From Planococcus shenhongbingii (GTDB taxonomy: Bacteria > Bacillota > Bacilli > Bacillales_A > Planococcaceae), in assembly GCF_030413635.1 (NCBI RefSeq), contig NZ_CP129235.1:2914001-2978000 (forward strand): 64,000 nt of DNA, written 5' to 3'. Below the pieces are notes generated by a model. That model had not been told where the DNA came from and did no database searches. It saw only the letters and a program-made list of their open reading frames with translations. Of this stretch, positions 31,189 to 51,547 are shown piece after piece. Both the position numbers and the translations under genes were made by a program. Every line of letters begins with the position of its first letter. Positions within the stretch are counted from its first letter, which is position 1.

Positions 31189-32367
31189 TCAACTTGTTTC
31201 TTCAATAAAACCCGCTCGCTCGATTAACGTTTTTTGATAAAAATCATCCATCTCGTGCCATATTGTTTCATTGCTGAAGTTTTCTTCTCCCCATTTTTTT
31301 CCTTGTACCCCCATCTGTTTTCGAAGATCCGGATTCGCAATAAGGTAATCTAATTGGGTAATTACCTTATTCACATTTTCTGGATCAACCAGCAACCCTG
31401 TTTCCCCTAGGACCACCGTATCTCTTGCACCTGTCACATCTGCTGCAAGAACTGGAACGCCTGCAAGAGAAGCTTCTAAAGAAACATTTCCGAATCCTTC
31501 ACGTTTAGTTAAGAATACAAATATATCCATTAAAAAATAAAATGGAATTGGGTTATGCTGATAACCCCTGTATATAATATGAGGGTTTTCCATTATTTCT
31601 GTTTTTGTAGCGTTGCTGACAGCATCTCCTTCTTCAAAATCCCCTACAACTAACAATCGCAAATTCGGATTCGTTTCATGCAAGTAAAGAAAAGATTCAA
31701 CCAGTTCCTCTATTCCCTTATCTTTGGTCAACCTTCCCACATACCCAAGCACCGTATGTTGACTAGACAGCCCCGTAGTCTGGCGTATCTGCTCAATTTC
31801 CGACTTCAGCGACGCAGTCATTTTGAAACTTTCTAGATCAAATCCGTTATAACTTCCTTGTCCCAAAATACGGATTTTGTGTTCCGGAGCAATCCCCAGG
31901 CTAATCAGCTGCTCTTTTAAACTTGGAGATACGGCCAGAACATCTGTTGCTGCAGTAGCGGCAATCTTTTCAGCGGCATGCAGAATTTTTCTTTTCAAGC
32001 CGCCAGTAGTTTCCAATCTAAGACCGAGTACATTATAAATCCTGACGGGCACTCCGCATAAGAATGCCGCCAGTGTTACAATGAGTCCCGCCTTCGGTGT
32101 TCCGGCATTGACAATATCCGGCCGCTCTTTTCGGAACAGCCGAATACATGCCATCAAAGACTTAAAATCTTGAATAAGTGATATCTCTCTTTCCATATTC
32201 ACCGTCAGTACTTTTGCTTCTTCATATTCTTCAAATACCTGAATATAATCGCCTTCGGAAGAAATTGCCCGTACCTCATAACCTTCTCTCTTCAGATAAG
32301 CTAACTGTCCTTTCATTAACTTTAAACTTAATGGAATGGTAACAGCGTGTATGACTTTAATGGCCAT
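31189..32367 (-). CDS. GT4 family glycosyltransferase (distal copy)
   Basis: 392 residues, GT-B fold retaining transferase. N-terminal domain opens KVIHAVTIPLSLKLMKGQL and carries NAGTPKAGLIVTLAAFL, the segment typical of PglA-like transferases that add a sugar to undecaprenyl-linked intermediates. C-terminal donor domain: LGYVGRLTKDKGIEELV and FLTKREGFGNVSLEASLAG with the E-x7-E motif. Very similar to the GT4 at 33503-34684, the two flanking an HprK-like kinase. Last gene of a seven-gene minus-strand operon starting at murJ. ATG 32367 follows AAGGGGGA. Confidence 0.9.
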   Translation of the reverse strand: MAIKVIHAVTIPLSLKLMKGQLAYLKREGYEVRAISSEGDYIQVFEEYEEAKVLTVNMEREISLIQDFKSLMACIRLFRKERPDIVNAGTPKAGLIVTLAAFLCGVPVRIYNVLGLRLETTGGLKRKILHAAEKIAATAATDVLAVSPSLKEQLISLGIAPEHKIRILGQGSYNGFDLESFKMTASLKSEIEQIRQTTGLSSQHTVLGYVGRLTKDKGIEELVESFLYLHETNPNLRLLVVGDFEEGDAVSNATKTEIMENPHIIYRGYQHNPIPFYFLMDIFVFLTKREGFGNVSLEASLAGVPVLAADVTGARDTVVLGETGLLVDPENVNKVITQLDYLIANPDLRKQMGVQGKKWGEENFSNETIWHEMDDFYQKTLIERAGFIEETS

Positions 32368-32419: not shown

Positions 32420-33472
32420 TTAAACCAAAGTTTCTTGCGTAATCTGGTCTATCAGCATTTGAGCATAATGCGTAGGATTGGTATCTTTCACGGAAAAAAC
32501 CTTCTGGCTGTTTTTTACGAGAGAGCTTAAAATTTCTTTTTCATTTGTTGCACATTCCTCAATATCAAGTTCAGGATTAAAAAATTCATAAGCAGTCAAC
32601 AAAGGAGATTTCAAATAGTGAAAAGCATTTCGATTAAAATTAACTAACTTCCGGATGGCTTCTGGGTCGGACTGGATTGTGACCTCATTGTCCCCTTTTT
32701 CCAATATCGCTACATGAGTCACCACTTCAGCATCCAGAAACGTATCACTGTCTACATAACGCGTAATAGGTGTCGCTTTTGAGAAGGAAACATATTCTAA
32801 AGGCGGAAACACTTTCGTTGCTTTGTTTTTTAATTTAGCGCCTTTACTTTGTTCCACATTTGAATAAAAGCGGAACGAGCTGGTCCAGGGAACCGAATAA
32901 ATTTTTTCCCCGTCCGTAATGGCCAAATCTTCAGCAATGAATTTTGCTTCATGTTCCATGCAGGCCATCATGCTGCTCAATGTCTTTCCAGTGCTTGGAG
33001 GGGCAAAAACCGCAACTGTGGAACCTTCTTTTTGAAACGCAGAGCAATGGATTGGCGCAAAACCTTTCTTCAATAAAAGAACTCCGGCTAAGTCAGTCAA
33101 GATATAACCAATCGAATGCAGGTTCATGATTCGGTGTGTGATAAATTTATAATAGTTTTTGTTCACTGTTATTTTTGGTTCATCGGACAATAGGTTTTCT
33201 GCCTTGATCCGAAATTTTTCTTTCATCGCTAAATTGCGGGTATAGTAGATTTTATTTTCTCCTGGAGAGCCGTTGAAGTAATGATATTTCCCCAGTGTTT
33301 CCAACTGATCATCTTCGTTGAACTCCTCCATGACTAAATTGATTTTCACTTCACACTGTTCATATTCTTCGCGGGTGCTTTCGGGCATATTATGGCCAAA
33401 AGACCATTTAAAATCCTTAATATTCGTTTTTACCGCTAGAATATTTTTTGCAGCAACATAGTAGTAATCCAT
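32420..33472 (-). CDS. HprK-like P-loop kinase, copy 1, of unknown target
   Basis: 350 residues. Residues 1-130 form an uncharacterised domain; 140-300 resemble the catalytic core of HPr kinase/phosphorylase: IHCSAF (141-146), P-loop APPSTGKT (157-164) and FIAEDLAITDG (178-188) at the place of the HprK acidic motif, then SVPWTSSF. The HPr-specific signature of true HprK is not visible, so HPr is an unlikely substrate. It sits between two paralogous GT4 genes with short gaps and good ribosome sites, hence one operon. A paralog lies at 50471-51547. A role as sugar or lipid-sugar kinase, or as protein kinase controlling polymer synthesis, is conjecture. Confidence 0.7.
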   Translation of the reverse strand: MDYYYVAAKNILAVKTNIKDFKWSFGHNMPESTREEYEQCEVKINLVMEEFNEDDQLETLGKYHYFNGSPGENKIYYTRNLAMKEKFRIKAENLLSDEPKITVNKNYYKFITHRIMNLHSIGYILTDLAGVLLLKKGFAPIHCSAFQKEGSTVAVFAPPSTGKTLSSMMACMEHEAKFIAEDLAITDGEKIYSVPWTSSFRFYSNVEQSKGAKLKNKATKVFPPLEYVSFSKATPITRYVDSDTFLDAEVVTHVAILEKGDNEVTIQSDPEAIRKLVNFNRNAFHYLKSPLLTAYEFFNPELDIEECATNEKEILSSLVKNSQKVFSVKDTNPTHYAQMLIDQITQETLV

Positions 33473-33502: not shown

Positions 33503-34684
33503 TTAAATATGGGTCTGTCCGGCAGGCTTCAGGCTGTCAGCCAGGCAAGTTTGATAATAACGGTCCAGTTCTTTCCACATCACATGATTGCTGAAGTTTT
33601 CAACCGCCCATTTGTATCCTTGCTCTCCCATTTGGCGGCGTATTTCCGGCGCAAGTATCAATAATTCAAGTTTTTCCAGGATATCAAGGGGATTTTCAGG
33701 ATCTGCCAGAAAGCCTGTTTTACCGTCGACAATGGTATTTTTAGCTCCCGTAACGTTTGCAGCAATAACCGGCACTTTTGAAAGAGCAGCTTCAATTGCC
33801 ACATTTCCGAAGCCTTCCCGTTTTGTTAAAAATACAAATACGTCCATCATATGATAGAACGGAACTGGATTCCCTTGGTAACCGGTATGGATAATGTACG
33901 GGTTTTCCTTGATTTCCTTTTGTATTCTTTCTTCTACCGGATCAGCCATTTCGTAATCCCCGATGAGCAGCAGCCTCAAATTCGGATGAGTCTTATGTAG
34001 CGCAAGGAAAGAATCGATCAGCTCTGTAATGCCTTTGTCTTTCGTCATACGGCCGACAAAGCCTAATACAACATGCTCTTCAGTAAGTCCATATTCTTTC
34101 CTATTCGCCTTTATTGTTTCTTCGACTTCAGCTGTTTTCTGGAACTCTGCAATATTAAAACCATCGCCGCTTCCTTTTCCCAATACGGAAATTTTCTCGA
34201 TTGGAGCAATGCCGAATTCAGCTATGCGGCTTTTTAAACTGTCTGAAACCGCTAGACAATGAGTAGAAGCACCCGCCGCTACTTTTTCAGCAGCAACCAA
34301 AATCTGTCTTTTTAACCCACTAGTGGTCTCCATTCGAAGTCCCCTAAGAGTATAGATGCGAATTGGCACTCGGCAAATATAAGCCGCAAGAGTGACAATC
34401 AGGCCTGCTTTAGGTGTACTGGCATTGACAATATCGGGCTTTTCCTTGCGGATGATCCGAATGCACTTCACCAAAGATTTAAAGTCTTTTAAAAGGGAAA
34501 TTTCCCGTTCCATTTCAATCAGCAGCACCTGTGTTTCTTCCTGTTTTTCAAATTTTTCTACATAGCTGCCGTTTGAACTCATTGCTTTTATGTCATAGCC
34601 GCATGCAGCCAAATATTTCAGCTGCCCTTTCATGAAATAAAGGCTTTCTGAAACTGTCACTGCTTGAATTACTTTACTTCCCAT
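33503..34684 (-). CDS. GT4 family glycosyltransferase (proximal copy)
   Basis: 393 residues, GT-B fold. KVIQAVTVSESLYFMKGQL at the N-terminus, NASTPKAGLIVTLAAYI, LGFVGRMTKDKGITELID and FLTKREGFGNVAIEAALS with the donor-binding E-x7-E pattern. Colinear with the GT4 at 31189-32367 throughout, so the two arose by duplication and probably add successive or alternative sugars to a lipid-linked repeat unit begun by the sugar-phosphate transferase upstream. ATG 34684 follows AAAGGAGTG. Confidence 0.9.
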   Translation of the reverse strand: MGSKVIQAVTVSESLYFMKGQLKYLAACGYDIKAMSSNGSYVEKFEKQEETQVLLIEMEREISLLKDFKSLVKCIRIIRKEKPDIVNASTPKAGLIVTLAAYICRVPIRIYTLRGLRMETTSGLKRQILVAAEKVAAGASTHCLAVSDSLKSRIAEFGIAPIEKISVLGKGSGDGFNIAEFQKTAEVEETIKANRKEYGLTEEHVVLGFVGRMTKDKGITELIDSFLALHKTHPNLRLLLIGDYEMADPVEERIQKEIKENPYIIHTGYQGNPVPFYHMMDVFVFLTKREGFGNVAIEAALSKVPVIAANVTGAKNTIVDGKTGFLADPENPLDILEKLELLILAPEIRRQMGEQGYKWAVENFSNHVMWKELDRYYQTCLADSLKPAGQTHI

Positions 34685-34788: not shown

Positions 34789-35409
34789 TTATTCATTGCT
34801 GTAAACGCCTTCGGATTTGATCACTTTAAAGAATGTTTGCAAAATGATGTACAGATCATATCGAATGTTCTTTCGGTTGATGTATTCTACATCCAGATCA
34901 ATTTTTTCATCCCAAGTGAGCGCATTTCTTCCGCTGATTTGTGCCAGTCCTGTAACGCCTGGCTTAACAAAAAGCCGCTGTTTCTGGTATTCGTTGTAAT
35001 TGTCTGTCTGTGAAGGCATGGTTGGTCGCGGGCCGACAAAAGCCATATCCCCTTTTACAATATTGATCAATTGCGGCAATTCATCTAAACTGGTAGTCCG
35101 CAGAATATATCCGACTTTTGTAATCCTTGGATCGTTTTCCACTACATCAATGTCCAGGCTCAGTTTTTCGGGCTCATCATACATCGTCCGGAACTTATAA
35201 ATTGTAAAGTATTGGCCGTGCAAACCGCCGCGGACTTGAGTAAAAAAGATGGACCCTTTTGATTCCAGTTTGATCAGGATTCCGATTACAACAAACAGCG
35301 GGGACAAAATAATTAATAGTAATAGTGCGAAAAGCCACGCACTGCTGCGGGCTAGATATTGGGACCACTTGGCTTGCTTCAACTCAAAAGCAGTTTGTTC
35401 ATTTGCCAT
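34789..35409 (-). CDS. Undecaprenyl-phosphate sugar phosphotransferase (initiating enzyme)
   Basis: 206 residues, PglC/WcaJ-C-type bacterial sugar transferase. One membrane hairpin (about 20-45, LLLLIILSPLFVVIGILIKLES), then FTQVRGGLHGQYFTIYKFRTM, RTTSLDELPQLINIVKGDM (catalytic Asp-Glu pair) and FVGPRP, and VKPGVTGLAQISGRNALTW. It loads a sugar-1-phosphate onto undecaprenyl phosphate, the first step of a repeat unit. The short monotopic form fits PglC-like enzymes that use diacetamido sugars, though the donor is not readable. ATG 35409 follows AAGGAGG. Confidence 0.93.
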   Translation of the reverse strand: MANEQTAFELKQAKWSQYLARSSAWLFALLLLIILSPLFVVIGILIKLESKGSIFFTQVRGGLHGQYFTIYKFRTMYDEPEKLSLDIDVVENDPRITKVGYILRTTSLDELPQLINIVKGDMAFVGPRPTMPSQTDNYNEYQKQRLFVKPGVTGLAQISGRNALTWDEKIDLDVEYINRKNIRYDLYIILQTFFKVIKSEGVYSNE

Positions 35410-35421
35410 TTCTATTCCTCC

Positions 35422-36711
35422 TTAAAATCGCCAAAGCTCGATGTTTTCCGGCTTTTCATTCGGATCCAAAGTACTCTTTATATCAAAGACCAGTCCTTTT
35501 TTATCGATGAGAAGCTTTTCAATCAACTTCCATCCGGCCTCTTTATACAATTTATGAGGGACAGCGAGGATGACCGCGGATGCTGGAAGCAGCTCCGATT
35601 CCGGAGTGATGATAAGCCCGTAGCGCCGCTCCATCTCCTCCGCATCAATGCAAATATCTGCAATTTGCACTTCAATGCCGTATTCCTGGAGTTCTTCAAT
35701 TACATCGAGCACTTTTGAATTTCTCAGCTCATTCATATCTTCTTTATAAGTAATGCCTAATACAGTGACTCGCATTCCTTTTACTGCACTGTTGTTTTTA
35801 ACCAGCTTTTTTACAACGGTCCTGGCGATGTAACTGCTTATACCGTCGTTGACTCGTCTGCCCGCTAAGATGATTTCAGGATGGTAGCCCGCTTCTTGGG
35901 CTTTATGCGTCAAATAATACGAGTCAAATCCTACCCGGCGCCCACTGACAAGTCCGGGAGTAAACTTCAGAAAACTTTTTTTGGTTCCTGCAGTTTCCAG
36001 CACATCGTTGGTATCGATGCCCAAGCGATTAAAAATAAGTGCCACTTCATTTATAAAGGCAATATTGACGTCCTGCTGCGTGTCTTCGATCACTTTTGCC
36101 GCTTCTGCAACCCGTATTGATTTTGCTTTAAAGACGCCGGCATCAACTACACTGCCATAAACGGAGGCTACAAAATCCAGGACTGCTTCATTTTGCCCGG
36201 AAACAACTTTCTTCGTTTTTGTAAAAGCCTGTTTCTTGTTTTTGGGTTGGACGCGTTCAGGGGAATAGCCCACAAAAAATTCGCTACCTGCCTCTAGTCC
36301 TGAATTTTTTTCAAGTACCGGTATGCATTGCTCTTCTGTAGCTCCGGGATAAACTGTCGACTCAAAAACGACAACAGCCCCTTTTTTCATATGCTTGCCT
36401 ACTGCTGCACTTGCACTCAAAAGAGCCTTAAGATCCGGCTGGTTCAAGCTGTCAACTGGAGTTGGCACCGCAACAATGATAAATCCCGCTTCATTGATTC
36501 TTGCTGCATCAGTTGTAAACTCAATATTCAAGTCCTTGAGTTCCCATTCTTCTATTTCATTGGCATTATCGATGCCTGTTAAAAGCTGTTCTATACGCTT
36601 ATCGTCAATATCAATACCGATGACATTGTATTTTTTCGCGAAAGTGGCAGCGATTGACAAGCCGACATAGCCAAGCCCAACTACCGCTATTTTCAACTTG
36701 TCGATCATCAT
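35422..36711 (-). CDS. UDP-sugar 6-dehydrogenase family protein lacking the catalytic Cys
   Basis: 429 residues, most like the WbpO/TviB UDP-HexNAc dehydrogenases. N-terminal NAD domain IAVVGLGYVGLSIA, then VPTPVD, VVFESTVYPGAT, GYSPERVQP; Lys206 of the active site is present in EAAKVIED. However Asp210 stands where the family has Asn, and the nucleophile region reads SGRRVGFDSYYL instead of GGHCxGVDPYYL, placing Arg259 at the catalytic Cys. The frame is open and the rest is well conserved. It may stop at the aldehyde, have another chemistry, be structural, or be dead. ATG 36711 overlaps the upstream stop by 4 nt (ATGA). Confidence 0.85.
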   Translation of the reverse strand: MMIDKLKIAVVGLGYVGLSIAATFAKKYNVIGIDIDDKRIEQLLTGIDNANEIEEWELKDLNIEFTTDAARINEAGFIIVAVPTPVDSLNQPDLKALLSASAAVGKHMKKGAVVVFESTVYPGATEEQCIPVLEKNSGLEAGSEFFVGYSPERVQPKNKKQAFTKTKKVVSGQNEAVLDFVASVYGSVVDAGVFKAKSIRVAEAAKVIEDTQQDVNIAFINEVALIFNRLGIDTNDVLETAGTKKSFLKFTPGLVSGRRVGFDSYYLTHKAQEAGYHPEIILAGRRVNDGISSYIARTVVKKLVKNNSAVKGMRVTVLGITYKEDMNELRNSKVLDVIEELQEYGIEVQIADICIDAEEMERRYGLIITPESELLPASAVILAVPHKLYKEAGWKLIEKLLIDKKGLVFDIKSTLDPNEKPENIELWRF

Positions 36712-37988
36712 GCTATCCTCTCTCCTTTTTTCTGCTTCCAACGAATATTCGCTAACGTCAAGAGCTGCTTAGTGTTTGACATCGTGAATGTAATCAGCAA
36801 TAGCGGAATTATTTTATTGCGGTGGCGCATGGCTGTTCCCGCGGATTGTGTCCCATAGGAATAAACGAATACAGTCACAACCAGAAACAGCGCTATGAAG
36901 ACTTTATTTCTGATCGGCATGTCACTCTTCAAAAGCCCGAAAACAGTAGCTCCTACCAAAAACAAGTAAATCGAAGAATCAAATAGGAAACTCACAATAT
37001 CTCCCAAACCGCGCCAATCCAATGGAAGCGGCGAAAACATAAAGTAAAACATTTTAATTGGTGCCACCAGAATCGCAGCCACGCCCGTCAAGCCATTCAA
37101 GTTTGCCAGATACATCGATCCGCCTTCGCCCCCGATTTCCACTTCGGTGATAACCTTCCCTTCAGGACTAATGAACTTCCCTAGGAACATTTCGGCATTC
37201 AGGAAGATGAAGGCAAATAATGCGGCAAAGAATAGGAGATACAGGATGGTCTGGCCCGATTTTTTTGCCGTTCTCGTACTGAGAAACAGAAACGCCAGCA
37301 CATAAGCAACCACAAATCCAATCATTCCTGAGTGGAAAAGCATCGACGTCAAAGCCAGTACGACTGCCAGCAAGAAGTGGAAGAACCCGCCGTCCGTAAA
37401 CCATCTGACGAAAAAGTAAAGGGAAACGGTGATCAAGAAGATGATGAGGGATTCACGCAATAAAATACTCGACATAAAAATGCTGTTCGGCATAGCCGAG
37501 AAAATAAGCAATGATATGAACATCAATTTCTTATCGGTTTTCAAATGAATCATGGCCTTCAATAAATAAATTGCAGAAAAAACCCAAAAAGCTACATTTA
37601 AAAACTGCACAAAAGGCCGCTGGTCGCCAATCATATAGTAAATCGCCGAAAGGAAAGGAACATAATTCGTGGCGCCGTCTTCTAACGGATACATTCCATT
37701 GGCAATGAGGAGAGAAACTTCGTGAAAGTATTCAGTATCAGTGCCACTTGAGAAAATAGTGATGGATGGAATATACAAATCAATGAAAAGCACGAATACC
37801 CGGACCACAAATCCGATAAAAATAATTGCCAGCCATTCCCTTTCCAGCGTCCGGTACAGATACAAGGATATTGCCACGATGCTGACAAGCAGCATCAACA
37901 TGCCATAAGCATCACCCAGTGGAATAAAATCTTTAATCATATACGTAACCAAAATTTCCATTAAAAACAGAGCCAATATGAAGAGCAT
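36708..37988 (-). CDS. Polytopic membrane protein, probable polysaccharide polymerase
   Basis: 426 residues with about 10-12 hydrophobic helices. No motif names it with certainty. An extracellular loop SSGTDTEYFHEVSLLIANG followed by PFLSAIYYMIGD recalls GT-C/Wzy-like proteins that use lipid-linked donors; FMSSILLRESLIIFLI and SYGTQSAGTAMRHRNKIIPLL further on are like EpsG/Wzy polymerases. Position between a flippase and an initiating-enzyme set makes polymerisation of the repeat unit the most economical role (inference). ATG 37988 follows AAGGGGGTG. Confidence 0.7.
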   Translation of the reverse strand: MLFILALFLMEILVTYMIKDFIPLGDAYGMLMLLVSIVAISLYLYRTLEREWLAIIFIGFVVRVFVLFIDLYIPSITIFSSGTDTEYFHEVSLLIANGMYPLEDGATNYVPFLSAIYYMIGDQRPFVQFLNVAFWVFSAIYLLKAMIHLKTDKKLMFISLLIFSAMPNSIFMSSILLRESLIIFLITVSLYFFVRWFTDGGFFHFLLAVVLALTSMLFHSGMIGFVVAYVLAFLFLSTRTAKKSGQTILYLLFFAALFAFIFLNAEMFLGKFISPEGKVITEVEIGGEGGSMYLANLNGLTGVAAILVAPIKMFYFMFSPLPLDWRGLGDIVSFLFDSSIYLFLVGATVFGLLKSDMPIRNKVFIALFLVVTVFVYSYGTQSAGTAMRHRNKIIPLLLITFTMSNTKQLLTLANIRWKQKKGERIA

Positions 37989-38039: not shown

Positions 38040-39554
38040 TTATCTCTTCGCCAATGCGACTATTCTGGATTTGTAATAGCCGATGTCACTTAATTGAAGA
38101 ACCCAAAGCATGCTGGCATAAACAACAATCCCTGCTCCAATCCCTCCAGCCAAAGCCAAAATTCCCATTCCTGCTTCATCAAGCAGCGTGTAAATGTATT
38201 TGGCTGAGAAACCCATTACAGCTGAAGCCATCACAGCTTTGAACAGATCCTGAACGATTTTTAACGAATTCATCGAACCGACTTTTCGTACCAAGGAAAT
38301 ATATAAAAAGCCTGTGAAAACCAGTGTCGAAATGCTTGTTGCAAGCGCCAGCCCATTAATTCCCATGAATCGTGAAAGAATGAGGCATAAGATGACATTC
38401 AAGAACATGGCTCCAAAAGCACTGATCATCGGTGTCCGGGAATCTTCCAGTGAATAAAAGACTTTTACTAGAACTTCTCGGAGCCCGAAGCCGAGCATCC
38501 CGACGGCATAGAAGAAAAGTACTCCGGAAGTAAGGATTACCTCATTCGCTTCGAAAGCCCCCCTGCCAAAAAGCAATTCAGTGATTTGTGTTGAAAAAAT
38601 CATGATGCCGACCGCTGCCGGAATGACGATCAATGCTACAGTCGTTATGATTTTCCCAACGATATTTTTGAGTTCCTCCATATTCTGCTTCACAGCAAGC
38701 TTTGAAATTTTTGGAAACATGACGGTCACAACAGCGGTAACAAAAATTGCTTGAATAAAGAATATGATGCGGTGGGAATAAGTTAAAGCAGAGATTCCGC
38801 CTTCTACAATCTGCGAGGCTAATGTGCGATCGACCAGCACATTAATCTGATCAGCAGAAACCCCGATAATTACAGGTATGGCGATGTACATCATTTTCCT
38901 CACATTTTTTTCTTTAGGATTTACTTTGAAACTGTGCCGGTAGCCTGTTTTGCGTATCCACGGAACCAGGAACAAAAATTGCACAACTACGGCAACGAGA
39001 GTTCCGATGGACAATACATAGATATTCGTAAAAGAGCTTAAATAAATGACAAAAAGCATCATTATGTTTAATGGCAATCCGGCAAGAACCGTTGGCAAAA
39101 AACTCTTATGGACTTCCAAATAGCCGTTAAAGACATATATCAATGCGGTGAAATAGATGCTCAAGGCAGCAATGCGAGTAAAGTCGATAGCGATTTTCAA
39201 TGTCTCGCCTTCAAATCCTGAAGCGAATACTTTAACGATGGCTTGTGGAAACAACAGAATGAGCACCACAATGCCCGTTGATAACAGCAAAACGATATTG
39301 ATCACGTTTGCTGTAAATTTTCTGGCTTCTGCAATTCCTTGTTTTTCCTGAATTTTAGTGAATATCGGAATGAAACTGGCTACAATTCCCATACCTATAA
39401 AAGAAAAGAACGCAGTCGGAATATCTGTAGATACCAGATAAGCATCTGTTAAACCATCAGCGCCATAAAAATATGAAAGAGAGATGTCTCTCGAGAAGCC
39501 CAGCACTTTAGTTACGATAATTACTGTCATTAAGGCAATAACGGTCTTTTCCAT
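38040..39554 (-). CDS. murJ: MurJ/MviN family lipid-linked sugar flippase
   Basis: 504 residues, 14 predicted helices, MOP superfamily. TVIIVTKVLGFSRDISLSYFYGADGLTDAYLVS at the N-terminus (parts: KVLGFSRD, YGADGLTDAY) and SASQI-like core EGGISALTYSHRIIFFIQAIF are the MurJ hallmarks. MurJ flips lipid II; here it is first in an operon for a surface glycopolymer, so it may instead serve as the Wzx-like flippase of that polymer. Start ATG 39554 has GAGGTAG upstream. A leader of roughly 230 nt separates it from the promoter module at 39789. Confidence 0.87.
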   Translation of the reverse strand: MEKTVIALMTVIIVTKVLGFSRDISLSYFYGADGLTDAYLVSTDIPTAFFSFIGMGIVASFIPIFTKIQEKQGIAEARKFTANVINIVLLLSTGIVVLILLFPQAIVKVFASGFEGETLKIAIDFTRIAALSIYFTALIYVFNGYLEVHKSFLPTVLAGLPLNIMMLFVIYLSSFTNIYVLSIGTLVAVVVQFLFLVPWIRKTGYRHSFKVNPKEKNVRKMMYIAIPVIIGVSADQINVLVDRTLASQIVEGGISALTYSHRIIFFIQAIFVTAVVTVMFPKISKLAVKQNMEELKNIVGKIITTVALIVIPAAVGIMIFSTQITELLFGRGAFEANEVILTSGVLFFYAVGMLGFGLREVLVKVFYSLEDSRTPMISAFGAMFLNVILCLILSRFMGINGLALATSISTLVFTGFLYISLVRKVGSMNSLKIVQDLFKAVMASAVMGFSAKYIYTLLDEAGMGILALAGGIGAGIVVYASMLWVLQLSDIGYYKSRIVALAKR

Positions 39555-39910: not shown

Positions 39911-40933
39911 TCAGATTTCCAGCTTTATATTATTACTGTATTCCCGCTTTACGGCTGACCGGTAAGCAGGAAAGAATTCAGTTTCTCTTTCAACACCTGC
40001 TGCCTGGCATAATTGATCGTAAATAGGTTCATTCCAAATCTTTTGTCCGATATAAAATTTGAAGTTTGTATTTTTTCCGAATTGCTTTTTGAAGGCGTAT
40101 AACTTATCATCTAAGCTATTCGTTCTTCCTCCACCGTCATGGATTAAGTTAAATCCATTTTCCTTCCCCCATTCAACAAGAGCATACTGCAAAATATAAG
40201 CAGGTGATAAACGATGAAATTCTTCCAATGTGCCAGACAAATGGGTATGAATGGTTTCGCCATAGACAAAATTCAATCCCATTCCAATTACTTGTCCTTC
40301 ATAGACCGTTTCAACCAGTAAAATATTTTTACCGAAATACCCTAAAATTTCCTTGAAATAATCTTCATCAAAATAATAGTAAGTATCCGCCTTATTACGC
40401 TTCATCGTATGATGGTAAATATTGATAAATTCTCCGAGATCCGGCGGATTTACGGTGATCTTAAATTCTACGCCATCATTCAGCGCTTTTCTTATATTTT
40501 TCCTGGTAGACTTCGAAAACTCTTTTTGCACAGGATCATCATAATCTTTCAAATTTGTACCAACCGTATTTCGAATATACGAGACTTCATAGCAGTTTTT
40601 GAAATCATGTGCATTCGCTATTACAGGATGAAAGCGTATAAACTCGCTAACAATATCGTTTTCTTTGCAATATTCCTGAAAAGCTTCCATAAATTTAGCG
40701 GTCAATTCTTCTTGCTTACCGGGTTCGCATTCAGTGATTAAAGGCCCACCATAGCCATATGGCGTAACAATATCGAAATATATTTTACCCAGAATTTTCA
40801 AAGGGATTTCACGCTTAATGAACATATGCCTTATTGTTCCAAGTGAATGATGGAATTCAAATACCTCACATTTTCCATTTTCGATTTCCTCGTACAAACG
40901 CCCATAATTTTCATCAAAATATAAATCTCCCAA
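39911..40933 (-). CDS. FemAB-like GNAT transferase, copy 1
   Basis: 340 residues, tandem acyl-CoA N-acyltransferase fold with an Acetyltransf_6-type C-terminal half. Conserved pieces: NYGRLYEEIENGKCEVFEF, TPYGYGGPLI, FIRFHPVIAN, FSKSTRKNIRKAL, MGLNFVYGETIHTHLSG and YALVEWGKENGFNLIHDGGG. Relatives use aminoacyl-tRNA (FemABX) or acyl-CoA to modify wall precursors or sugars. TTG 40933 start aligns with the Met of the paralog at 41366 and has AGAGGT upstream. Likely decorates the polymer of this island (inference). Confidence 0.82.
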   Translation of the reverse strand: MGDLYFDENYGRLYEEIENGKCEVFEFHHSLGTIRHMFIKREIPLKILGKIYFDIVTPYGYGGPLITECEPGKQEELTAKFMEAFQEYCKENDIVSEFIRFHPVIANAHDFKNCYEVSYIRNTVGTNLKDYDDPVQKEFSKSTRKNIRKALNDGVEFKITVNPPDLGEFINIYHHTMKRNKADTYYYFDEDYFKEILGYFGKNILLVETVYEGQVIGMGLNFVYGETIHTHLSGTLEEFHRLSPAYILQYALVEWGKENGFNLIHDGGGRTNSLDDKLYAFKKQFGKNTNFKFYIGQKIWNEPIYDQLCQAAGVERETEFFPAYRSAVKREYSNNIKLEI

Positions 40934-41365: not shown

Positions 41366-42373
41366 TCAGACTTTGTTATATTCTTTCAAAACTTTTGTTC
41401 GATAGGCTGGGAAAAACTCTGCATTTACATCAATGCCGAGTTCATGGCATAATTCTTCATAAATCTTTTCGTTCCAGATTTTTTTTCCGATTTGAAACCT
41501 GAAATCGGTGTTTTTGCCGAATTGTTTCTTGAACAGATACAAAGTATCTTCTAGGCTATTCGTTCTTCCGCCGCCTTCATGGATCAAGTCAATGCCATTT
41601 TCTTTTCCCCAAACAGTCAAAGCGTATTGAAGGATATAAGCCGGCGACAAACGATGGAAGTTTTCCAAAGTACCTGAAAGATGCGTATGGATCAGCTTTC
41701 CGTAAACAAAGTTTAATCCCATTCCAATTACCTGGTTATCATAAATTACTTCGACCAATAGAATATGTTCTTTGAAAAATTCAATCAGCTTCTCGAAATA
41801 TGCATCGTCAAAATAATAATAAGAATCAGCTTGATTGCGTTTCATCGTAGAATAATAAATTTCTTTAAATTCTTTTACATTTGGAGGATTGGCTGTCACC
41901 CGGTATTCAACCCCGGCTTTTAGGGCTTGGCGGACGTTTTTTCGGGCCGACTTAGAAAATTCTTTTTCAAACGGATCTTCGTAAGCAGCAAGATTGGTAC
42001 CGACAGTATTTCGGATATGGACAATTTCATAGCACACGCGAAAAGCTTCTGCATTTGCCTCTACCGGATGAAAACGGATAAATTCACTTATTACTTTATT
42101 GTCAGTACAGTATTGTTGGAAAGCTATCCCAAATTCTTTCGCCAGTTCTTTCTCCTTGCCTTCTATACATTCAATGATGAGTGGGCCACCATAACCATAT
42201 GGAGTTACCATGTCATAATAAGCGACACCATTCAGAAGCATAGGAATTGGGCGTTTAATAAACAAATGTCTTACTGTACCTAAAGAATGGCGGAATTCAA
42301 AAACTTCGTGTTTTCCATTTTCAATTTCTTCGTATAATCGGCCATAATTTTCTTCAAAGTAGATGTCTCTCAT
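41366..42373 (-). CDS. FemAB-like GNAT transferase, copy 2
   Basis: 335 residues, colinear with the copy at 39911-40933: NYGRLYEEIENGKHEVFEF, TPYGYGGPLI, FIRFHPVEANAE, FSKSARKNVRQAL, MGLNFVYGKLIHTHLSG, YALTVWGKENGIDLIHEGGG. The two genes are on the same strand but each has its own terminator, so they may be expressed under different conditions or act on different acceptors. Start ATG 42373 matches the paralog N-terminus and has GGGGAAAGG upstream; the longer frame to 42415 is not supported. Confidence 0.82.
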   Translation of the reverse strand: MRDIYFEENYGRLYEEIENGKHEVFEFRHSLGTVRHLFIKRPIPMLLNGVAYYDMVTPYGYGGPLIIECIEGKEKELAKEFGIAFQQYCTDNKVISEFIRFHPVEANAEAFRVCYEIVHIRNTVGTNLAAYEDPFEKEFSKSARKNVRQALKAGVEYRVTANPPNVKEFKEIYYSTMKRNQADSYYYFDDAYFEKLIEFFKEHILLVEVIYDNQVIGMGLNFVYGKLIHTHLSGTLENFHRLSPAYILQYALTVWGKENGIDLIHEGGGRTNSLEDTLYLFKKQFGKNTDFRFQIGKKIWNEKIYEELCHELGIDVNAEFFPAYRTKVLKEYNKV

Positions 42374-43000
42374 TGCCTTTCCCCTTTTCCATAAGCGTAT
42401 AATCTTAAAATCCATTTAATAACTGACCCCGCTGAGCTGTTTTAATGCATGAATTAGAACTTCTTATTCTTTGACCTTAAAAATTCCATATTGCCTTTCT
42501 GCTACGCAATAACGATTTGGCTTCACTATTTTATTCACTTTTGAGCAGCGAATCTGAGTAACTCAGCCAGGAAAAGTATCGAATTTAAAATTTTTCAAAT
42601 AATTCGATTTATTAAGTATTATATATCTTATGCGCCAAAAGCGCTATTATAATTATTTCGATTACCAAATTATATTTTGATTTAGCCGAGCTGCTTAGGA
42701 ATATAGACATTAAGTAGAGACCTTTTCAGACCGCAGTAGGGTTGGAACGCATATTTTTCCACATCTTTCAGTTTCTAAATGAAGGAACAATTCTCTAATT
42801 CATTTTCTTTTTATAATAAATTTATAAAGTTGCTCTGTTCTTTAAGGAAGAAAATCAAAAATAATCGATGTCTCTTTTAAAAAATAGCTTTAAATTATTT
42901 AAAATAAATCCTTTTCTATAGTATTTTATGCCTATTCCATACAACCTATTCAGCGGTTATACTATTCAAGATATTACAATATTTACCTGGGAGGTAGAAA
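42374..43000. other. AT-rich intergenic region between divergent genes
   Basis: 627 bp with no credible ORF. It must hold promoters for FemAB-like copy 2 and the LPDTA protein. A TATACT at 42957-42962 is a possible -10 for the latter but lacks a good -35. Confidence 0.4.
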
Positions 43001-49199: not shown

Positions 49200-49241
49200 T
49201 TAAAACCGCTGATGAAAACTTATTTCATCAGCGGTTTTTAT
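49200..49241. terminator. Bidirectional terminator
   Basis: Stem TAAAAACCGCTGATGAAA-like, AAAACCGCTGATGAAA/TTTCATCAGCGGTTTT, between convergent GIY-YIG and aldolase genes. Confidence 0.92.
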
Positions 49242-50340
49242 CATATATTTTTTTAAGGCTTAATTTTTCATTCAGCAGCCGGAAAGCTTGCGCCATTTTT
49301 TCTTTAGGTATGTCTGCATATAAATCTCCTAGGCTTACTTCAAAATAGCAGCTCTCTTCTGTCTTTTCTGTTAAGTAAGAGCTGAAGCCTACTCCCGATT
49401 CCTGGTGGACTTCTGCAAGCAAGGTGGCGATGCGTTCTTTCGGCTGGCTAAAATAGACGTGGAACATATTAGAAACTGGATTTAGCGGCAATGTGGAAAT
49501 AGCCTCACAGGAATTGAAATACTGGGCAACTTCTCTGGCTTCTTCAAAATACTGTGCCATTTTCTCGGAACGCTTTTCAAAATAATAGTCAGCCGGCAGG
49601 ATATATGGATACAATGAAATTAAATCTCCGCCATGCCGGCGCTTCCATATCTTCGACTGCTTGATGAATTTCTCGTCTCCAGCCAATATCGCTCCAGCGA
49701 TGGCCCCGATTCCTTTATACAGCGAAATATACACACTGTCGAAAAGTGAAGCGATTTCTGCGGCTGACTTTTGATAATAAGGAAGTACTTCTACCAGTCT
49801 CGCTCCGTCCAGGTGAAGCTTGATTCCTTTATCTCGGCTCCATTCAGAAATCTGTTCCAAAGTCTCATAGCTTGGCAATTGTCCGCCAATTTCCCGTTGA
49901 GGCAACTCCAGCAGAATGCAAGCAACTTCCTCATTCATCCCTGTGACATCTTCGAATTCGATTACCCTGTTTTTATCAGCTAATAACACAGTTTCGATAT
50001 GATGCAATTCTTTTAAGCCATCTTCCTCGTGTATTTCCAGATGGCTCAACGGATGGTAAGCGACTTTTTTCAAGTTTTTTTCATCGCACCAAATGCGCAA
50101 TGCAATCTGCTGTGCCATTGTACCACTAGGAAAAAAGACAGCCGTTTCTTTGCCTAAAAACTTAGCCATTTTCACTTGAAAATCATCTATCACCTTTCCT
50201 GCTCCGTAATGGTCACTTTGAATGTTTTCATCCACTTGATCAACTACGTCTTTTAATATACTTACTGTTCGCTTTCCATGCCCTGCTAGTTGAAACTGTG
50301 TTTGTTCAAAAGTTTCTTTTAAAGGATTCTTCTCGTTCAT
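49228..50340 (-). CDS. Threonine aldolase / beta-eliminating lyase family PLP enzyme
   Basis: 370 residues, fold-type I PLP enzyme of the threonine aldolase group. N-terminal YGAGKVIDDFQVKMAKFLGKE matches the D-x-Y/H-G-x-x-x-x-x-x-L-E pattern region; FFPSGTMAQQIAL binds cofactor phosphate; KLHLDGARLVEVL supplies the PLP Asp and Arg; SLYKGIGAIAGAIL holds the Schiff-base Lys. Canonical low-specificity enzymes have SLSKGLGAPVGS, so substrate preference may differ. It likely cleaves a beta-hydroxy amino acid to glycine and an aldehyde. No operon partner is evident. Confidence 0.85.
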   Translation of the reverse strand: MNEKNPLKETFEQTQFQLAGHGKRTVSILKDVVDQVDENIQSDHYGAGKVIDDFQVKMAKFLGKETAVFFPSGTMAQQIALRIWCDEKNLKKVAYHPLSHLEIHEEDGLKELHHIETVLLADKNRVIEFEDVTGMNEEVACILLELPQREIGGQLPSYETLEQISEWSRDKGIKLHLDGARLVEVLPYYQKSAAEIASLFDSVYISLYKGIGAIAGAILAGDEKFIKQSKIWKRRHGGDLISLYPYILPADYYFEKRSEKMAQYFEEAREVAQYFNSCEAISTLPLNPVSNMFHVYFSQPKERIATLLAEVHQESGVGFSSYLTEKTEESCYFEVSLGDLYADIPKEKMAQAFRLLNEKLSLKKIYDKNR

Positions 50341-50470: not shown

Positions 50471-51547
50471 TTAAAATAGCGATACTATTTTCTTTGATTC
50501 CATCGGTTCTTCCTTCATTTCAAAAAGCAGCGTTTCAGCATAATGGGTTGGGTTTATTTTTTTCAGTGTAAACACTTTTTCGCTGTTTCTAACGAGAGAG
50601 GATAATATTTCTCTCTCTTTCACCGTTCCATCATCTATCATAAGGCCGGGATTGAAAAACTCATAAGCAATCAGCAAAGGCGCCCGTAAAAAGTTGAATT
50701 CATATCTGTTTAAATTCATCAGCTTGCTGACAGCCGTATTTTCAGATTGCGGAATCACTTCATCTTTGCCTTTCTCAAGTATAGCTACATGAGTTACAAT
50801 TTCTGCATCGAGAATCGCTTTAGCTTTAGCATTCTCCTGTTCCGGAACTTTAGCTGAAGCGGAAAGAACCTTTAAAGGCGGGAAAACTTTGGCTGCTTTC
50901 TTCCTGAATTTTGAACTTTGCGCTTCCTTGTTTTTCGCATAATGGTCAAACGAATTGGTCCAAGGCACGGAAAAGATATTTCTGCCATCCGTTATAGCCA
51001 AATCTTCAGCGATGAAGCTTGCTCCAAAATCTCCGCAAGCCGTCATAGTACTTAAAGTTTTGCCTGTATCCGGCGGGGCGAAAATAGCGACCGTTGCATC
51101 TTCTGCTTTAAAAGCCGAGCAATGAATAGAGGCATAGCCCTTTTTCAACAATAGAAGTGCCGCCAGATCGGTGGCAATATAATGAACGGAATGCAAGTTC
51201 ATGATTCTATGTGTCACCAGCTTATAGTAGTTGCGGTTTACTGTAATTTTAGGTTCATCTGACAATAAATTTTCTGCCTTTAGCCTCAGTTTCTTCTTCA
51301 TTGGAAGATTGCGCGTATAGTAAATCTTGTCCTCTCCCGGAGCTCCGTTGAAGAAATGGTATCTGCCTAGATTTCCAAGCAGTTCATCGTCATTGAAATC
51401 CTCTAGCACGATATGCATCTTCACTGCACATTCTTCATATTCCTTCATTGTTCCTTCCGGCATATTAGAGCCAAAAGACCATCTGAAATCTTTTATATTT
51501 GTTTTAACTGCCAAAATGCCTTTTGCCGCGATATAGTAAAAAGTCAA
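50471..51547 (-). CDS. HprK-like P-loop kinase, copy 2, of unknown target
   Basis: 358 residues. Aligns with the copy at 32420-33472 without gaps over residues 1-190, about 136 identities by eye. Shared: ILAVKTNIKDF at 11-21, FNG.PGE.KIYYTRN, AENLLSDEPKITVN, THRIMNLHS, IHCSAF (141-146), P-loop APPDTGKT (157-164), FIAEDLAITDG. The region 195-240 diverges and the C-terminus is longer. It is a single gene with its own terminator and the promoter module at 51609-51644. TTG 51547 start with GGGGAG upstream. Target unknown. Confidence 0.7.
   Translation of the reverse strand: MTFYYIAAKGILAVKTNIKDFRWSFGSNMPEGTMKEYEECAVKMHIVLEDFNDDELLGNLGRYHFFNGAPGEDKIYYTRNLPMKKKLRLKAENLLSDEPKITVNRNYYKLVTHRIMNLHSVHYIATDLAALLLLKKGYASIHCSAFKAEDATVAIFAPPDTGKTLSTMTACGDFGASFIAEDLAITDGRNIFSVPWTNSFDHYAKNKEAQSSKFRKKAAKVFPPLKVLSASAKVPEQENAKAKAILDAEIVTHVAILEKGKDEVIPQSENTAVSKLMNLNRYEFNFLRAPLLIAYEFFNPGLMIDDGTVKEREILSSLVRNSEKVFTLKKINPTHYAETLLFEMKEEPMESKKIVSLF

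Follow-up and report, generated by a model that had tools for sequence, protein, structure and literature searches.

A nucleotide-sugar dehydrogenase homologue without the catalytic cysteine, a candidate retained pseudoenzyme, in a conserved gene cluster of Planococcus

We analysed a stretch of 64,000 nucleotides from Planococcus shenhongbingii (contig NZ_CP129235.1, positions 2,914,001 to 2,978,000 of the forward strand), in the following called the window, and focus on one of its genes, which encodes a homologue of the nucleotide-sugar dehydrogenases without the catalytic Cys (P0001). Table 1 lists this gene, its informative codons and its neighbours. The translation comprises 429 residues with 0 internal stops. 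In the Pfam search PF03721, PF00984 and PF03720 each scored above cut-off, and by descent and fold P0001 is a member of the family, with an N-terminal nicotinamide adenine dinucleotide (NAD) domain, a central domain and a C-terminal uridine diphosphate (UDP)-binding domain. It also passed the cut-off of TIGR03026 (352.3 bits, cut-off 189.8), to which the 6-dehydrogenases of UDP-N-acetylglucosamine and UDP-N-acetylgalactosamine (UDP-GlcNAc/GalNAc, TviB/WbpA type) belong. P0001 differs from these enzymes in lacking the catalytic Cys and in having Asp for Asn and Ser for Gly, and against the TviB equivalog NF011729 (UDP-GlcNAc C-6 dehydrogenase) it reached 430.2 bits, below the curated cut-off of 592. 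As an active four-electron enzyme it does not qualify, with Arg259 in the place of Cys260 (S. pyogenes numbering).

Table 1. Coordinates of the dehydrogenase homologue, its codons of interest and other genes of the window.
Feature	Position in window	Strand	Basis
Nucleotide-sugar dehydrogenase homologue without catalytic Cys (P0001)	35422..36711	-	429 residues; Pfam and TIGR03026
Codon CGG, Arg259, catalytic Cys column	35935..35937	-	translation, alignment
Codon CGC, Arg258, His column of GGHC	35938..35940	-	translation, alignment
Codon GAC, Asp210, replaces invariant Asn	36082..36084	-	translation, alignment; Asp in 2/9 Arg-class rows (P0001, P0002)
Codon AAA, Lys206, catalytic Lys kept	36094..36096	-	translation, alignment
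GLGYVG, NAD-binding glycine motif, kept	36661..36678	-	translation, alignment
Membrane protein upstream of dehydrogenase, polymerase-like (Wzy) by position	36708..37988	-	position; no Pfam/NCBIfam match
Sugar-phosphate transferase (Bac_transf)	34789..35409	-	PF02397
Group-1 glycosyltransferase	33503..34684	-	PF00534
Protein of unclassified family, HprK-like label inferred from sequence	32420..33472	-	20/46 genus genomes
Second group-1 glycosyltransferase	31189..32367	-	PF00534
MurJ-type flippase	38040..39554	-	PF03023
FemAB-like / GNAT protein	39911..40933	-	family match
Second FemAB-like / GNAT protein	41366..42415	-	family match
Pyridoxal phosphate (PLP) enzyme, beta-eliminating-lyase type	49228..50340		PF01212, weak DegT match

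The replacements were located by translation and in an alignment of 121 proteins, the query plus the best 120 of a longer list of homologues. Arg259 falls in the column that holds Cys in the canonical proteins, and residues 256-259 read SGRR, with Ser256 replacing a Gly. The original prediction had named Arg259 and Asp210 and had described Lys206, the NAD motif and the reading frame as intact; the codons confirm each of these statements, and Ser256 and Arg258 are further replacements. Of the 18 family-invariant residues, for which we used the list in the available text of PMC4794789, P0001 retains 15, while Asn208, Gly257 and Cys260 (S. pyogenes numbering) are replaced. Its only Cys residues are 129 and 354, the first of which is shared with canonical relatives, and residues 200-290 hold no Cys that could compensate in the pocket. 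That the thiohemiacetal cannot form, as had been predicted, follows from the absent Cys. In the AlphaFold model the predicted local distance difference test (pLDDT) of loop 257-261 is <50, so that Arg259 is unplaced and no pocket geometry is derivable.

A sequencing or assembly error, or an alternative Cys in the pocket, has a negligible probability as the cause of this pattern. In addition to the lack of Cys in residues 200-290, the same Ser256, Arg258, Arg259 and Asp210 occur in P0002 (98% identical, five member sequences), and Arg at both 258 and 259 was also found in G004, G007, G013 and P0003-P0006. Because independent relatives carry the same Arg, we ruled out a sequencing error.

In the alignment of 121 proteins the motif at this site is GGRR or SGRR for P0001-P0006, and GGPR predominates in a sister group. 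Nine rows of the tree alignment belong to the Arg class, P0001 and eight close relatives with 78-98% identity to it, all nine with Arg, and 13 rows belong to the sister PR class, with Arg in 11, Trp in one and Leu in one. The two classes together form a clade that carries the replacement (support 100/97 in the more careful of two trees, from which five Arg/PR rows had been dropped). Arg is replaced by Trp, Leu or Lys in P0028, P0053 and P0142, and Asn210 by Ile in P0028. Other replacements in the Cys column were Phe in P0183 (GGHFIGVDPYYL) and Lys in P0148 and P0142. The closest canonical relatives include the Planococcus proteins P0007-P0010, which retain GGHCIGVDPYYL. Of 215 genomes outside the genus, 15 had hits in the family search at E 1e-140 or better, 17 hits in all, and the 13 hits that were read all have GGHCIGVDPYYL, the copy of G062 included (in L105). 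In a scan of the contigs of named relatives, in which close relatives of the window may be missing, we obtained 20 distant loci; 19 have the GGHC motif and one (L114) gave no pattern match.

Across the genus, 42 of the 46 genomes (own included) have a family relative at E 1e-60 or better and 22 have the upstream membrane protein at E 1e-30. In G037 the membrane protein is only 45% identical and adjoins another dehydrogenase, and this genome was not counted; the window's cluster is found in 21/46 genomes (membrane protein at least 59% identical). All 21 clusters place the dehydrogenase between the polymerase-like gene and the sugar-phosphate transferase. At this position the canonical state was observed in G024 only, in protein P0007. 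The other 20 copies are Cys-less and 19 of these are unbroken. The Arg form occurs in G000, G004, G007 and G013 and the PR form in G012, the G025 copy has Ser in the Cys column, and the remaining 14 copies, that of G016 among them, are strongly decayed, with a length of about 393 residues. The G012 copy (L085:9030-10318) is split by a frameshift into two overlapping frames of 247 and 182 residues beside a base run, which is either a true break or an assembly error; its relatives include intact copies. Two genomes of a sister genus also carry a canonical dehydrogenase: in G061 it comes with MurJ and the membrane protein, arranged in the same order, and in G062 it comes with MurJ, the membrane protein being unmatched. 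Since both hold a canonical dehydrogenase in a like context, the canonical state of the cluster dehydrogenase is probably ancestral.

Further Cys-less forms lie in other surroundings. The GNHGK class (4 genomes) follows a GalU-like nucleotidyltransferase (L068, L069, L070, L071; Pfam on one). In G030 and G032, which hold two of the Ser-class copies, we found a reduced polymerase-like gene or none; at L066:8794-10113 and L067:8949-10268 the dehydrogenase frame is full, the polymerase-like gene was not found or has 140 residues and the dehydrogenase is not followed by a sugar-phosphate transferase. The G/E class is sited elsewhere in 11 genomes, together with a Wzz protein and a BY-kinase-type ATPase. 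At L054:5695-9955, and at the same locus in L055-L064 (11/11), these genes are joined by those of two short proteins, one of CapD/FlaA1 type and one a sugar-transfer ATP-grasp protein; in L054 their matches cover only 1-167 of 293 positions (PF02719) and 115-250 of 278 (PF14397). Three sugar enzymes in a row are apparently degenerate at this locus and conserved across species.

We then compared the degree of decay, counting the invariant residues kept out of the same 18. All 18 are kept in 28/28 canonical rows counted, 16-17 in the PR class (n=13), 15-17 in the Arg class (n=9), 14-15 in the Ser class (n=3), 11-15 in the G/E class (n=11), 9-10 in the GNHGK class (n=4) and 5-7 in the decayed class (n=13), with 5 in the G016 copy. 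Among the Cys-less copies at the cluster position the number kept runs from 17 to 5. All 13 decayed rows lack Cys260, Lys204, Asn208, Thr83, Thr118, Glu141, Lys320 and Asn287. In the NAD motif the third Gly is lost in all 13 and the second in 4. Because these Cys, Lys, Asn, Thr, Glu and Gly residues are lost, the decayed class cannot be the original enzyme. The predicted model of a decayed protein has low confidence at 225-253, i.e. in the region of the catalytic loop, and superposes poorly overall, with a root-mean-square deviation of about 18-20 Å on most family members and 4.5 Å to 1mfz. The 11 G/E copies lack both the Cys and the general-base Asp. The 22 Arg and PR rows all keep the NAD glycines, Thr119, Glu152, Lys206 and the general-base Asp263, and 21 of them keep Lys323.

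Selection was estimated with the Nei-Gojobori method from the ratio of nonsynonymous to synonymous substitution rates (Ka/Ks) for five classes (Arg, decayed, G/E, Ser and GNHGK; the PR class was left out). The medians, which are rough as many Ks values exceed 1, were 0.063 for the Arg class (6/6 pairs), 0.088 for the decayed class (78/78), 0.076 for the G/E class (34/55 pairs usable), 0.084 for the Ser class (3/3) and 0.104 for the GNHGK class (6/6). For seven neighbour genes in the same genomes we obtained medians of 0.034-0.088, some with half of the pairs usable. Two features of a pseudoenzyme are thus found in P0001: conserved catalytic residues are lost and, as far as these rough ratios go, selection is purifying. 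The constraint is not spread evenly. In the catalytic loop (251-290) the mean pairwise identity is 0.95 in both canonical sets, 0.84 in the PR, 0.83 in the GNHGK, 0.72 in the decayed and 0.68 in the G/E class, and in the helix region 196-250 it is 0.88-0.96 in all seven sets (P0002, P0005, P0028, P0053 and the Ser class were left out of this comparison). According to the available text of PMC4794789 this helix joins the domains and contributes dimer contacts.

These values bear on the possibility that the gene is being lost and persists by chance or because its translation is coupled to that of its neighbours. The split G012 copy, the reduced or missing polymerase-like gene in G030 and G032 and the raised Ka/Ks of 0.127 for the Ser-class pair without the usual neighbours (L066-L067) would fit such a course. 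It is already weakened by the 19/20 unbroken Cys-less copies at the cluster position, by medians of 0.06-0.10 in five classes and by the conserved helix in every class compared, and we consider it very unlikely.

The number of Cys losses differed between the two trees. A quick tree, built on 103 selected homologues and loci (L085 left out), showed one Cys change with support 86. In the careful tree of 69 rows we counted two changes, and 36% of its 200 bootstraps showed a single one; 34 rows had been dropped from it, namely the GNHGK and decayed classes (17) and 17 others including P0002, P0005, P0014, P0028 and P0053. A single loss is therefore not established, as one and two losses are indistinguishable.

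Our preferred reading, to which we assign a probability of roughly 0.6, is that P0001 is a retained pseudoenzyme that descends from a UDP-N-acetylhexosamine 6-dehydrogenase of the TviB/WbpA type, with a non-catalytic role in surface-polymer synthesis. Judging from the sequences, the Arg class is throughout without the Cys nucleophile, the frame of P0001 is intact and selection against protein change is ongoing; in the syntenic relatives most catalytic and NAD-binding residues are gone and the gene is kept. The suggestion in the original prediction that the enzyme is repurposed fits this well, with relatives that shed nearly all catalytic residues yet remain intact and constrained. P0001 would not carry out the full four-electron oxidation, because neither the thiohemiacetal nor the thioester can form once the Cys is gone. 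In human UGDH, going by the available text of PMC3184952, a Cys to Ser exchange traps an adduct, and the C276A variant cannot complete the reaction from UDP-glucose but still oxidises added aldehyde.

Several observations weigh against this reading. The Arg-class loop 251-290 has an identity of 0.94, as conserved as in the active enzymes. In the 22 Arg and PR rows 14/17 family-invariant residues are unchanged, compared to 51/98 of the other canonical-invariant columns (p 0.03, uncorrected and one of several tests). Substitutions were not significantly enriched in the active site of any of six classes (p 0.07-0.8), in a test with a column set of our own choice and 47 canonical rows selected for having Cys, L048 and P0037 left out. 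The Ka/Ks ratios are rough for the reason given above, and that of the decayed dehydrogenase is the highest in its own cluster, level with one glycosyltransferase. Given the uncertain single loss, the Arg and decayed forms may have arisen separately, which weakens inference from one to the other, and the quick tree carries a warning of long-branch joining of the two most decayed classes. No partner protein for the Cys-less dehydrogenase was found in this computational analysis. Finally, the gene after the sugar-phosphate transferase in the Ser-class cluster of G025 encodes a DegT-type aminotransferase. Together with the PLP enzyme of the window, which lies about 7 kb past the operon, it is the closest to an aldehyde user that we saw. 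Neither is known as a user of C6 aldehydes.

Much of this would suit an altered enzyme, in which the Arg class binds NAD and UDP-sugar and performs one reversible two-electron step from the alcohol to the C6 aldehyde, or another reaction with Arg in the place of Cys. With a loop conserved to the degree seen in active enzymes, the Arg class may carry out such a reaction, and the catalytic and NAD residues other than Cys kept in the Arg and PR rows, the better conservation of the pocket columns, the aldehyde oxidation by human C276A and the two PLP-type candidates are consistent with it. However, P0001 and P0002 carry Asp and P0028 carries Ile in place of Asn210, the Arg column varies in P0028, P0053 and P0142, the position of the Arg in the low-confidence loop is unmodelled, and the decayed relatives are incapable of such a reaction. 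We regard an altered enzyme as unlikely. The suggestion in the original prediction that only an aldehyde is made could thus apply to the Arg class with its 14/17 conserved pocket residues but cannot hold for the decayed relatives, and the operon proteins with a family match include no obvious aldehyde user (two proteins are unmatched).

A different possibility is that the dead protein co-assembles with a canonical paralogue and tunes it. The second intact copy that the original prediction had asked about exists in the same genome outside the window (G000:C1:3022681-3023937, 41% identical, GGHCIGVDPYYF, 18/18 residues, about 72 kb away), and few parts of the protein are as well conserved as the dimer helix. 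An identity of 41% would be low for hetero-oligomers, though, and G004, an Arg-class genome listed as 100% complete, has a single PF00984 protein, the Cys-less one. Because G004 has no second family member we set a heteromer with a live paralogue aside as quite unlikely. The trypanosome AdoMetDC prozyme, a dead paralogue that acts as activator, and other pseudoenzymes are similar in that a dead paralogue is retained, but the prozyme works with a live partner (PMC6221367, available text), whereas Planococcus G004 has no other family member.

Returning to the retained pseudoenzyme, the conserved pocket of the Arg class and the absence of this bias in the decayed (5/17 vs 45/98) and G/E classes (9/17 vs 68/98) suggest two stages. 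In the first the chemistry would have been lost and ligand binding kept, as in the Arg class; in the second the pocket would have been lost and the fold and dimer core kept, as in the decayed forms. The dimer helix (about 196-250) and the C-terminal domain would be the common factor, kept for a non-catalytic purpose. Since its NAD and UDP-sugar pocket is still conserved, the Arg class probably still binds NAD and/or UDP-sugar and may serve as a subunit that responds to its ligands. The most economical role would be that of a scaffold or regulator, either of the polymer assembly enzymes or of the nucleotide-sugar supply, and this role needs no live dehydrogenase because G004 has none.

The stop of the membrane-protein gene overlaps the start of the dehydrogenase gene (ATGA). 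The membrane protein is under strong constraint (Ka/Ks about 0.04) and adjoins the dehydrogenase in 21/21 clusters; its Pfam and NCBIfam searches gave no match, which is why the polymerase-like label is only inferred. The same searches gave no match for the unclassified protein at 32420-33472, which has a related copy in the window at 50471-51547 (62% identical). The PLP enzyme lies beside this second copy, and by eye we saw genes resembling it near the cluster in L053, L065 and L067.

The tua (teichuronic acid) operon of B. subtilis encodes a sugar-phosphate transferase, a flippase, glycosyltransferases, a membrane polymerase-like protein and a nucleotide-sugar dehydrogenase. The Planococcus cluster has a similar set of gene types and differs in that the dehydrogenase is Cys-less in 20/21 copies and FemAB-like and unclassified proteins are added. 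The ancestral enzyme probably supplied the uronic acid for a teichuronic-acid-like polymer of this operon. In its gene context, the G/E class with its Wzz and BY-kinase-type neighbours in 11 genomes can be likened to B. subtilis Ugd (YwqF), a substrate of the tyrosine kinase PtkA and, according to PMC4304235, an active enzyme; the 11 Planococcus copies differ in lacking the Cys and the general-base Asp.

Database entries name such proteins nucleotide sugar dehydrogenase (P0002), UDP-N-acetyl-D-galactosamine dehydrogenase (P0141) or UDP binding domain-containing protein (P0123), and the dehydrogenase names carried by Cys-less proteins are a warning for annotation. Pseudoenzymes as such are well known. 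Among the literature matches listed, as far as titles and abstract openings go, we found none described in the nucleotide-sugar dehydrogenase family, and the matches listed for Planococcus polysaccharide clusters held nothing relevant.

The loss of the Cys and the retention of the gene in the same cluster suggest a job other than the original reaction. The path from active to dead is laid out in one genus and at one locus, with the canonical form surviving in G024 and in the sister genus, and such a series allows direct testing of the roles that such proteins have besides catalysis. Tentatively, and with odds that we place somewhat below even, nucleotide-sugar dehydrogenases of surface-polymer operons may have a second, structural role that is free of catalysis, and the Planococcus protein may have survived on that role alone. 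If this is true, the genus would offer a natural series from the canonical form over the Cys-to-Arg form to forms with 5-7 of the 18 residues at one operon position, and another Cys-less class would have settled by a Wzz/tyrosine-kinase pair, adjoining truncated relatives of two sugar enzymes.
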